Assembly (NCBI GenBank): GCA_003165315.1
Contig: PLSX01000231.1
Span: forward strand, 24,038 to 88,037
Reading direction: 5' to 3'
Origin: Acidobacteriota bacterium
Lineage (GTDB): Bacteria; Acidobacteriota; Terriglobia; UBA7540
DNA length: 64,000 nt
Shown: positions 1,072-59,574 of the stretch, piece after piece
Layout: every line of letters begins with the position of its first letter
Position numbering within the stretch: the first letter of the stretch is position 1
Made by a program: the position numbers and the translations under genes
The notes under the pieces: generated by a model
The model's input: only the letters and a program-made list of their open reading frames with translations
The model's database searches: none
Told to the model about the DNA's origin: nothing

Positions 1072-1131
1072 ACCCACGGCTTACGCCATGGGCTACATTA
1101 TGACGCCCCGATGCATCGGGGCTGACTTCGG
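1072..1131. repeat. Palindromic intergenic element (CCCACGGCTTACGCCATGGGCTACATTATGACGCCCC..GGGG)
   Basis: Two adjacent hairpins; related to sequence at 4074-4180. Confidence 0.6.
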
Positions 1132-47237: not shown

Positions 47238-47519
47238 GCCACGAATCGTAGCACGTGTAAATTTCCGATGTGTGAAACAAGTATTTGGATCGAACGTAAG
47301 AACTCGGATGTAAGAGTTCCTGCTTGTGGAAAACCGCGAAGAAATTTCGGAATAATTGTCTTATCCGGCTGCCCATTTGCCGCCTTTTCCGACCCCGTGG
47401 AATGCCTCGTGCTAGCCTATTAACGCGACCAACGCCCCAGGGTGGAATGACGCACCTCTGCTGGCAGACAACTTCAGGGTACCGGGAATGGGGAAAAAGC
47501 CCGCCAACAACTCGAGGCC

Positions 47520-47774
47520 AGCCATTATGTTTATCAAACAAAATAGGTTAGCTGCTTTCAGCGAAAAATGCTAAGACTGCATACTATTGAAAATAAATAA
47601 CTTAGAAAAATTACTGACGGCAGGCCATAAAAACGCGTGGGGGCAAAAAATGAAGGCTTCAGCCATTATGTTATTGAAAATAAAGGAAGGCAAAGGTCGA
47701 TTTTGGACGTAGCCATTATGTTGTTGAAAACAAAAGCCAAAAAATTCGACCCCTTATGTTCATGAAAATAAAGG
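47520..47774 (+). repeat. Cluster of ~24-bp dyad-symmetric elements, CCATTATGTTnnTGAAAATAAAGG
   Basis: Copies at 47520-47547, 47661-47686, 47711-47736, 47751-47774 and a degenerate one near 47577-47600. Confidence 0.85.
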
Positions 47775-47828
47775 TAGAGTAGAATTCAGTTCAGTTTCTA
47801 TTAGGCACAGCCCATACACTGAATTAAC

Positions 47829-48809
47829 ATGCCTGCAAACCTTACCCCAATTTACCTGGAAGCGGAGCGACGGTTCAAGACCGCCAAGACGACGGAGGAA
47901 AAGATCGCGGCCCTGGAAGAAATGATGGCCACAATTCCGCGCCACAAGGGCACGGAAAAGATGCAGGCCGAACTGAAACGCCGGCTTTCCAAGTTGCGGG
48001 CTGAGGCATCACGGCGGCCCCCCAGCCGCGCTGGACTGATCCACCGTGTTGATAAAGAGGGCATCGGGCAGGTGGCCCTGGTAGGGCCGCCCAACAGCGG
48101 CAAGTCGCTTCTGGTGCGCAAGCTCACGCACGCGCAGCCCGAAGTGGCGGATTATCCCTTCACCACGCGAGTGCCGCTGCCCGGCATGATGCCGTTTGAA
48201 GATGTGCAAGTCCAACTGGTGGACCTGCCTCCGGTCCATCCGGACTTCCCTGAGTCGTGGCTCTACCAGATCATCCGCAATGCCGACGCTGTCCTGCTGG
48301 TGGTGGACCTGAGCGACCCCGACCTGTTGGAGGATCTTGAGACAACGCTTGGCCAGGTGGCAAACGCCAAGGTGCAACTCAATTTGGGCGAAGTACCGAA
48401 CACGCCCGGATGGATGCGCAAACGCACTCTGCTGGTGGCTAACAAGATCGACATAAGCGGCACCCCGGAGGATCTCCAAATCCTCCGTGACTTGTACGGC
48501 GAGCGATTTGAGCTGACCCGGGTTTCCGCAGAAACTGGTGAGGGGCTTGAAGGACTGCGGCAGACAGTGTTCGAAATGTTGGATGTCATTCGCGTCTACA
48601 CCAAGGCGCCGGGAAAAAAGTTGGAGTTGGTTGCACCCTACGTCCTGAAGCGCGGCTCACATTTGATCGACCTTGCAGCCCACGTCCACCACGATTTTTT
48701 GGCCCAGCTCAAGTATGCCCGTCTTTGGCGCGAAGGCCGATTCGAAGGCCAGATGGTAAACCGCGATCATGTGCTGGAAGATAAGGACGTGGTGGAGTTA
48801 CACCGCTGA
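47829..48809 (+). CDS. Obg/DRG-like GTPase with TGS domain
   Basis: 326 aa; VALVGPPNSGKSLLVRKLTHAQPEVADYPFTTRVPLPGMMPFEDVQVQLVDLPP; C-terminal LKRGSHLIDLAAHVHHDFLAQLKYARLW. Confidence 0.88.
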   Translation: MPANLTPIYLEAERRFKTAKTTEEKIAALEEMMATIPRHKGTEKMQAELKRRLSKLRAEASRRPPSRAGLIHRVDKEGIGQVALVGPPNSGKSLLVRKLTHAQPEVADYPFTTRVPLPGMMPFEDVQVQLVDLPPVHPDFPESWLYQIIRNADAVLLVVDLSDPDLLEDLETTLGQVANAKVQLNLGEVPNTPGWMRKRTLLVANKIDISGTPEDLQILRDLYGERFELTRVSAETGEGLEGLRQTVFEMLDVIRVYTKAPGKKLELVAPYVLKRGSHLIDLAAHVHHDFLAQLKYARLWREGRFEGQMVNRDHVLEDKDVVELHR

Positions 48810-57433: not shown

Positions 57434-58567
57434 CTACAGTTTACGGATAAAATTCTTTCCCGGCAACTGCCGGATCAATCCGTTCATCTCCAATGCGAGC
57501 AGTGCGGCCAAAACTTTCGGGTGCGCAATCTTCGCTGCGCCCACAATATCATCCACAAAGGATGTCTGATCGGCCCGTAAAGTTTCAAACACCGCCTTCT
57601 GGTCCGGCGTAAGCGATGCCTCAAATAGTGTGGCCGATTGCGCCCCTATGGGTTCTCCTTCTGACGCCTCAAGGGGCGGCAAAAGTTGCATGCGAACTTC
57701 GGCAGGGAATTCCTCAATCACGTCCATCCACTGGTCCACCAGCTTCGCCCCCTGTTTTATTAGATGATTGGGACCGAAGCTTTGGGCGGAAGTTATATTT
57801 CCCGGCACAGCAAAGACTTCGCGGTTCTGTTCCAACGCCAGGCGGGCGGTAATCAGCGAGCCGCTATATTCCGCCGCTTCCACCACTACCACTCCGAGCG
57901 AAAGTCCGCTGATAATACGATTGCGGATGGGAAAGTTTTCCGGGGTTGGCCCGGTGCCCAGGGGAAATTCGGAAATCACGGCTCCGGACTTGGCAACCTC
58001 ATCCGCCAGCTTCTTATTCTCGCGCGGGTACATCACATCAATGCCGGAACCCATGACAGCTACGGTTTTGCCCTTGGCCTCCAGCGCTCCCCGGTGCGAG
58101 GCGGAATCCACTCCACGGGCAAGTCCACTCACCACCACCAGTTGCCGCTGAGCCAAATCGTGCGCCAGCCGATGCGCTACGGAACTGCCATAAGCGCTGG
58201 GCCGCCGCGAACCCACCACCGCCACGGCATACTGCGAGAGGACTTTGACGTCCCCGCGCACGTAAAGCAACAGCGGCGCGTCCGGGATCTGCTTCAGCAG
58301 CGGAGGATATTCCTCGCTGTCGTAGACAATCAGCTCACAATCGGCTTTGTAGATCTCCTGGATTTCTCTTTCAGCCTCTTTTAGAGCCGCTTGAGCAAAA
58401 ATTGCCTGAGCCACTCGGGCCGGAACGCCACAACTCTCCAGTTCAGTGAGCGACGCCATGTAGGCGGCTTGGGGCGAGCCAAAATGCTCAATGAGCTTGT
58501 GACAACCGCGAACTCCCAGCCCCTCAATTCGCGTAAGTGCCAGCCAGAATGGTGTAGTCTCCGTCAT
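57434..58567 (-). CDS. dprA: DNA-processing protein DprA
   Basis: 377 aa; VAVVGSRRPSAYGSSVAHRLAHDLAQRQLVVVSGLARGVDSASHRGALEAKGKTVAVMGSGIDVMYPRENKKL; C-terminal winged-helix-like. Confidence 0.97.
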   Translation of the reverse strand: MTETTPFWLALTRIEGLGVRGCHKLIEHFGSPQAAYMASLTELESCGVPARVAQAIFAQAALKEAEREIQEIYKADCELIVYDSEEYPPLLKQIPDAPLLLYVRGDVKVLSQYAVAVVGSRRPSAYGSSVAHRLAHDLAQRQLVVVSGLARGVDSASHRGALEAKGKTVAVMGSGIDVMYPRENKKLADEVAKSGAVISEFPLGTGPTPENFPIRNRIISGLSLGVVVVEAAEYSGSLITARLALEQNREVFAVPGNITSAQSFGPNHLIKQGAKLVDQWMDVIEEFPAEVRMQLLPPLEASEGEPIGAQSATLFEASLTPDQKAVFETLRADQTSFVDDIVGAAKIAHPKVLAALLALEMNGLIRQLPGKNFIRKL

Positions 58568-58838
58568 TTCGCTTCCTTTGGAAGAATCACTTCAAGAAGT
58601 TCAACCGCAGGTTCATTCCTTCCGAAACCAAGTTGCGGCCGGGTGGGGCATTATATGGCTACCCGAACGCCCGGGCTCATTTATTCGTAGCCCCATGACA
58701 TAATGACCCAGCATGCTTCGCCATGACGCTCGTAACCTCTGCGATCCCGAATCGGGCGGGGGCTGATTGAATGCCCCAGATGCAAAAGTGGGAAGCGATA
58801 ATTTGAGAATTTATAGGTCGCGGCGCCCAACTTTCTCT

Positions 58839-59110
58839 CTTCTTTTCAAACACATATTGGGTTCCAATCGATAAGCGCCTTATTTTTCAGCTGTTTATTG
58901 GGTTATCCCAAAACGGAGAAATTTCGGTCTTTTATTTTCATCAACTTATCGGGTTATCCCTTCATTTTGCCTTCTGCTTCTCTCCTCTTTGATAGCCTAT
59001 AATTTGGATAGATAACCGGCTTGATTTCAATACTTTGGCTTTTATGGCAGCCATCTCAGTTCCAAAAAGTTCTCGCCAAGTTACTGTATTTTCAACAACA
59101 TCATGGGTTC
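58839..59110 (-). repeat. Second cluster of the ~24-bp dyad element, opposite orientation
   Basis: cttcttttcaaacacatattgggtt (58839), ccttatttttcagctgtttattgggttatccc (58878), tcttttattttcatcaacttatcgggttatccc (58928), tactgtattttcaacaacatcatgggttc (59082). Confidence 0.75.
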
Positions 59111-59574
59111 GCAGGTTTCCTTCAGGGCTTCACCCGCGCTGGTTGAAGGGAAATGAGCCGGCACTGCCAAGGTACAAAGGCATCCAGTTCATATCTCTCC
59201 GGCTTCGATAGTGAGCTTTGACAATTGAGGCCAGGAACCATGCCCATCCCTACCCCACCCTTCCTCCCAGATTCTTCCTCCCGGTATCTTTTTCTCTCGT
59301 GGTGGGAAGGTCCCGGAAGAGCGAGGAGCCGACAGGACGCCATATTACATATTAATATTAACCTATCTTGCAACAATGTCAAGATTTTTCCGGGCTTACT
59401 CCTCGCAAATTACGGGGAAAGCAACCAGGCATATGGTTCCAGTGGAATCGCCCAGCCCAAATCCAGCCAAAATGTCGATTTGTGACCCAGTTTTCCCTTC
59501 GTTTGCGCTATCTCGTTAGGAGGAACAAATCGAGTTCGCAATCTTCGAAAAAACCACTGACCAGGAGGTATTCC

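Follow-up and report, generated by a model that had tools for sequence, protein, structure and literature searches.

A dispersed family of box arrays in Acidobacteriota that probably forms the 3' end of a mobile genetic element

The array of short repeats upstream of a GTPase gene in the window, i.e., the whole stretch of 64,000 nucleotides analysed here, is probably one end, the 3' end, of a mobile genetic element that occurs in dispersed copies; this end would be bound by the element's own protein, and ORF-less copies would be moved in trans. The real partner of such arrays is an uncharacterised ORF family found directly 5' of the intact ones. A full copy contains, from 5' to 3', a sigma70-like promoter, an ORF of 320-420 aa and an array of 4-8 direct boxes of ~24 bp, whose spacing is fixed and roughly helically phased. 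The element is scattered dozens of times in a family of uncultured Acidobacteria, usually directly 5' of genes, and no published description of it was found in the open-access literature. The window lies on contig C65 of the host genome G000 (6.19 Mb in 285 contigs), and all compared genomes are fragmented assemblies.

The window array consists of five boxes in one direction, on the forward strand. Box 1 (CCATTATGTTTATCAAACAAAATA, 47522-47545) was identified by the repeat search and by comparison of arrays, while box 3 (CCATTATGTTATTGAAAATAAAGG, 47663-47686), box 4 (CCATTATGTTGTTGAAAACAAAAG, 47713-47736) and box 5 (CCCTTATGTTCATGAAAATAAAGG, 47751-47774), the 3' end of the element, come from the repeat search and an alignment of CATT arrays. 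Box 2 (47576-47599) is degenerate, with the right half TATTGAAAATAAAT kept, and it sits at the +55 position conserved elsewhere. Directly 5' of box 3 there is a conserved inter-box block (47628-47662, forward strand), with an A-run, a G-run and AAAAAATGAAGGCTTCAGCC, seen in the alignment of 12 CATT arrays. The start-to-start distances are 54, 87, 50 and 38. An earlier note on this DNA, made from the sequence alone, had described clustered repeats within ~255 bp; this observation of five copies holds and is larger than described. The motif has six matches in the window with at most three mismatches and none in 100 dinucleotide shuffles. The spacings of 141 and 50 in the note are also correct, but the third, given as 40, is really 38, and the position of the degenerate copy is between copies one and two of the note.

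Two of the six matches belong to a second, diverged array, overlooked in the note, at 58.8-59.1 kb (58837-59106, minus strand), with boxes starting at about 59106, 58952, 58901 and 58860, i.e., with spacings of 154, 51 and 41. This array is located upstream of a DprA-like gene (57434-58567, minus strand), and the minus-strand sequence upstream of the array contains the -35-like TTGACA of this element's 5' end (59377-59382). The idea that the two arrays are the ends of one large composite element was rejected, as their codes and spacings differ and the intervening genes are ordinary chromosomal genes. For the first array, TGCTAGCCTATT (47410-47421, forward strand) is a probable remnant of the 5' (promoter) end, weakly suggested by the recurrence of its first ten bases: among the fetched G000 regions, TGCTAGCCTA occurs 5' of the window array and of the CATT arrays L065 and L074 only.

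The GTPase gene directly downstream of the window array (326 aa, 47829-48809, forward strand) is a host gene outside the element. No array lies upstream of its orthologues in G001, G003, G006, G010 and G015, which are 73-86% identical, and two of these genomes, G001 and G010, also share the neighbouring gene with the window. The native promoter of the gene in the relatives ends in TAATAG-like hexamers; by-eye alignment with TAATAG in G001, G003, G006 and G010 places the native -10-like hexamer of the window gene at TATTAG (47799-47804, forward strand), ~25 bp past the last box, so that the array is immediately upstream of it. The possibility by which the earlier note would have been refuted, that the motif is unique to this locus and conserved as the promoter of the GTPase, can be rejected: the motif is genome-wide, and the array is missing upstream of the orthologue in five relatives.

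In the G000 genome, a 20-mer core of the box has 60 + 64 = 124 matches (at most three mismatches), compared with a single match for the reversed pattern used as control. A two-box spacing pattern has 38 matches in G000, and its reversed control has none across all 39 genomes of the taxonomic family; by this pattern, 12 of the 39 genomes are array-positive and 27 array-negative. A weight-matrix scan of the window and 56 fetched regions gave 51 array calls, or ~50 arrays, since L090 (+) is another call read in reverse. The matrix was trained on the G000 arrays themselves, so its scores are only descriptive.

Within any array, every box has the same direction and the spacing is near-constant. From 5' to 3' it is 126 (54 + 72) repeated zero to two times, then 55, 86-90, 50-51 and 38-41; in a variant, 152-156 replaces 55 + 87. 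The box consensus is asymmetric, with a left part of ~8 bases followed by GTTNNTGAAAANAAAGG and a trailing TTA. The left part is common within an array and differs between arrays (CCATTATG, CCACGATG, CCAAGATG, CCCAATATG and others), giving left-end codes such as CATT, CACG, CAAG and CAAT, while the right half GAAAANAAAGG is constant. Therefore, the box is an asymmetric bipartite site. The dyad symmetry proposed earlier exists in some copies, and the one at 47751 indeed pairs with its reverse complement at 10 of 12 positions, but it does not extend to others, as the left-half letters vary by array. This variation also speaks against a simple dimeric operator, as does the fact that the copies are non-orthologous insertions. 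The spacers are unique only in part: among arrays of one type, they share conserved blocks. Ten long CACG arrays have an invariant TTCCACGAT at each of five boxes, and their spacers have diverged. CRISPR was correctly excluded, given the uneven but conserved spacings and the diverged boxes. The description of multi-copy, protein-type sites agrees with our analysis, and it is very likely that they are served in trans and have a link to DNA mobility.

Around some arrays the homology extends over long stretches, and these revealed repeats headed by a promoter. The promoter, a strong TTGACA-N17-TAGGCT, has 25 copies in G000 and none at three mismatches in 40 relatives. In several copies it drives a short ORF starting MSLRKxPTMTPxRIEANRRNAQKSTGPRT, and the N-terminus of the ORF family resembles MSLxKxxxxTEKxIAANRxNxxxSxGPxTxEGRxRxRxAxxRHGFY. 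Three G000 contigs (C115, C60 and C267) carry related full-length ORFs of ~350-370 aa directly 5' of same-strand arrays; in C149 the ORF is interrupted and in C282 it is a fragment. The box code differs among these loci, i.e., CACG with five boxes in C115, CACG with seven or eight in C60 and C282, CATT in C267 and CAAT in C149. The same order of ORF and array is found in G001, G003, G005, G007, G008, G018, G022 and others, and at the ORF loci of both G000 and the relatives the boxes are on the ORF strand, with nearly none on the opposite strand.

Searches of Pfam, NCBIfam, PHROGs and PDB sequences gave no match to the ORF family, and no catalytic motif or known fold was found in it. It is a real protein under purifying selection, as dN/dS is about 0.31, 0.14, 0.37 and 0.27 in four codon-level comparisons. 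The more two ORFs differ, the more the left halves of their boxes tend to differ (Mantel r 0.43, p 0.0026, 15 ORF-array pairs), and the family is present in 12/12 array-positive and 19/27 array-negative genomes (one-sided hypergeometric p ~0.04).

Some ORF-family copies deviate from this layout. One in C102 (L176) has no box, and one in C34 (L180) has a single GGCG-type box within the 3' end of the reading frame. G042 has 25 ORF-family matches and only three matches to the two-box pattern, and its arrays may use other box sequences. The leaders between promoter and ORF (L051, L177, L186) carry variable tandem inverted repeats, e.g., GGTGTTAGG...CCTGACACC. A viral origin was considered and rejected: no relative of the ORF was found in viral contigs, and the one weak plasmid match came from a planctomycete.

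Most copies, including both in the window, lack the ORF, and for 46 of the 51 array calls in G000 no remnant of it could be detected in the 2.6 kb upstream. The best explanation is that the ORF was lost by internal deletion while the ends were kept. Many of the ORF-less copies still have a 5' end with its promoter: TTGACAA is found in 17 upstream and 2 downstream flanks of the G000 arrays; in the upstream flanks it is often preceded by GTAGCCTC and then followed by ATG and a few codons. In relatives, fusions join ORF residues ~1-36 to ~280-330. In G012, from a sister genus, an element of ~430 bp is present in ~15 copies, which are mostly 82-90% identical, start near a TTGACA promoter and finish in a box array and CACTTA. 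Their 3' ends are sharp, and the internal deletions are ragged and varied. Further, a stretch of 52 bp that surrounds their first box is 88-94% identical to what follows directly 3' of an intact ORF of the family in G012. Taken together, the promoter start, the box-array end, the varied deletions and the 52-bp match point to a coding element with internally deleted derivatives.

The exact 5' terminus of the element was not found. No convincing target-site duplication flanks the G012 copies, whose 5' terminus is not fixed; by-eye inspection showed ACTGAGGC / GCCTCAGT in the outer flanks of only some of these copies, and they possibly belong to a neighbouring repeat. No inverted partner array exists within ~6 kb of the examined arrays, and the 5' end is a promoter instead. 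A separate palindromic repeat of ~90 bp follows directly after the 3' end in about half of the G012 copies (L242, L243, L247, L249, L251-L253), as if this repeat targeted that end.

The insertions are oriented. In gaps between tandem genes, the element runs with the genes in 19 cases and against them in 2 in G000, and in 5 and 1, respectively, in G012. Pooled, 24 of 27 point the same way as the next gene (24:3, two-sided binomial p ~5e-5), where the gene calls come from our own codon-usage caller and single cases may be wrong. Arrays are found 40-600 bp upstream of housekeeping genes, such as gyrA, glmS, glnA, cysS and a purB-like gene. At gyrA, the insertion occupies one common position in three species: G000 has an intact ORF and an array, G007 the C-terminal part of the ORF, with a stop, and an array, and G005 an internal deletion with the N-terminus and one box. 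Due to the shared position, this insertion must predate the three species. Between G000 and G007, its boxes are 79% identical and its spacers and flanks 47%, which suggests that some copies are under selection and kept for a host function after an old insertion.

We suggest the following mechanism. The protein of the element, alone or with a host or other transposase, would bind the boxes by contacting both the left half, specific to the array, and the constant right half, and the bound boxes would form a multi-site end complex, similar to the ends of the Tn7 and Mu transposons. Copies with and without the ORF could then be moved in trans and would settle upstream of genes, in the direction of the gene. 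It can also be speculated, tentatively and with more doubt than confidence, that this protein family, not recognised before, itself acts as the mobility enzyme of a new class of bacterial mobile elements, one that reads direct boxes of fixed geometry with a tunable left-half code and directs same-orientation insertion upstream of genes.

The main rival to a mobile element is a dispersed regulatory module, in which the ORFs are regulators and the multi-site upstream sequences their cognate sites, duplicated and kept to control the downstream genes. The agreement in direction with the downstream gene (19/21 tandem-gap elements in G000, 5/6 in G012), the housekeeping genes behind the arrays and the gyrA copy common to G000, G005 and G007, with its better conserved boxes, would all fit. 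However, the downstream genes have no common function, five relatives have no insertion at the GTPase site, the gyrA copy of G005 is down to one box, and array-only copies with ragged internal deletions and kept ends are typical of non-autonomous transposons. The orientation bias is also explained by an insertion preference or by selection against antisense copies. We consider this module unlikely. The end arrays of TnsB and MuA are multi-site, asymmetric and run in one direction. The resemblance of our arrays to such ends, and an ORF without a recognisable catalytic domain, would agree with non-autonomous elements that depend for their movement on an ordinary transposase (e.g., Tn7/Tn5053-type DDE) with its gene elsewhere, the ORF being cargo or accessory. 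This too is improbable, as Mu-transpos_C (TnsB/TniA/MuA; PF09299) is absent in G000 and G012, the array-richest genomes, and present in only 2/12 array-positive genomes, and as ORF divergence tracks the box code.

Two further readings have very little to recommend them. RNAalifold on 12 CATT arrays gave 7 pairs at -2.4 kcal/mol with a covariation term of -0.01, and Rfam has no match at the array; a structured noncoding RNA family or riboswitch-like leader is thus highly improbable, even though the direction agrees with the downstream gene and promoters lie 5' of the long copies. The tyrosine-recombinase core sites proposed in the earlier note, or invertible or cassette sites, would explain why CATT boxes have imperfect ~11-bp arms and a 2-bp centre. 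However, they can hardly be reconciled with boxes that always come in unidirectional arrays of 4-8 at fixed spacing, nor with the loss of the dyad in CACG and CAAG arrays, and no linked recombinase was found: one integrase-like fragment was noticed near one array and none recurs.

The mobile element that we favour partly resembles several known systems. REPIN-RAYT systems (PMC3116915, PMC8266576) are also high-copy noncoding intergenic elements, long-lived and served by a partner protein. However, REPINs are palindromic REP pairs and not direct arrays of 4-8 boxes with fixed spacing, the fold test on aligned arrays found almost no pairing and thus no palindromic REP hairpins, and RAYTs are Y1 HUH enzymes while the partner ORF has no HUH signature in Pfam. 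The ends of Tn7, Mu and CRISPR-associated transposons (PMC8649781, PMC10201428) likewise have several asymmetric sites of 20-30 bp with set spacing at one end, but G000 and G012 lack TnsB/MuA, and our element has no second inverted end array and is only ~0.4-1.8 kb with one unrelated ORF. Insertion-sequence MITEs, such as MITEAba12 (PMC6382973), are ORF-less internal-deletion derivatives that keep both ends. The copies described here also share both ends with a coding element, the 3' end by the 52-bp identity and the 5' end by promoter and N-terminal remnants; unlike MITEs, they have no IS transposase and no proven terminal inverted repeat or target-site duplication. BOX and RUP of Streptococcus pneumoniae (PMC3049150) are similar in their modular boxes of variable number in intergenic regions near genes. 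Their sequences are unrelated to the boxes here. To our knowledge, BOX elements are not linked to any coding partner ORF.

The family is a widespread, gene-proximal repeat of an abundant soil phylum whose partner protein is in no major family library. If the protein moves the element, it would be a new mobility enzyme with co-varying protein-DNA specificity and many natural pairs; if it regulates, this would be a dispersing promoter system settled before core genes, e.g., gyrA and glmS. Under either reading, the family accounts for a group of repeats and small hypothetical proteins of these genomes.

The boxes can be read as ...MKVHPAxxMKTKE... in small, probably spurious ORFs (the upstream ORF of L090; L180), and small hypothetical proteins annotated with such a sequence in these genomes may be box repeats. 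Five G000 loci (L058, L060, L066, L081 and L085) are mostly noncoding relatives of the element, 1-2 kb long, with tandem units of ~155-168 bp, each of which carries a GGCGAT.../CGAGAAG... version of the box. Elsewhere in the window, an Acido-Lenti-1 RNA is found at 1073-1123 (forward strand), with 38.6 bits, which exceeds the gathering score of the family.
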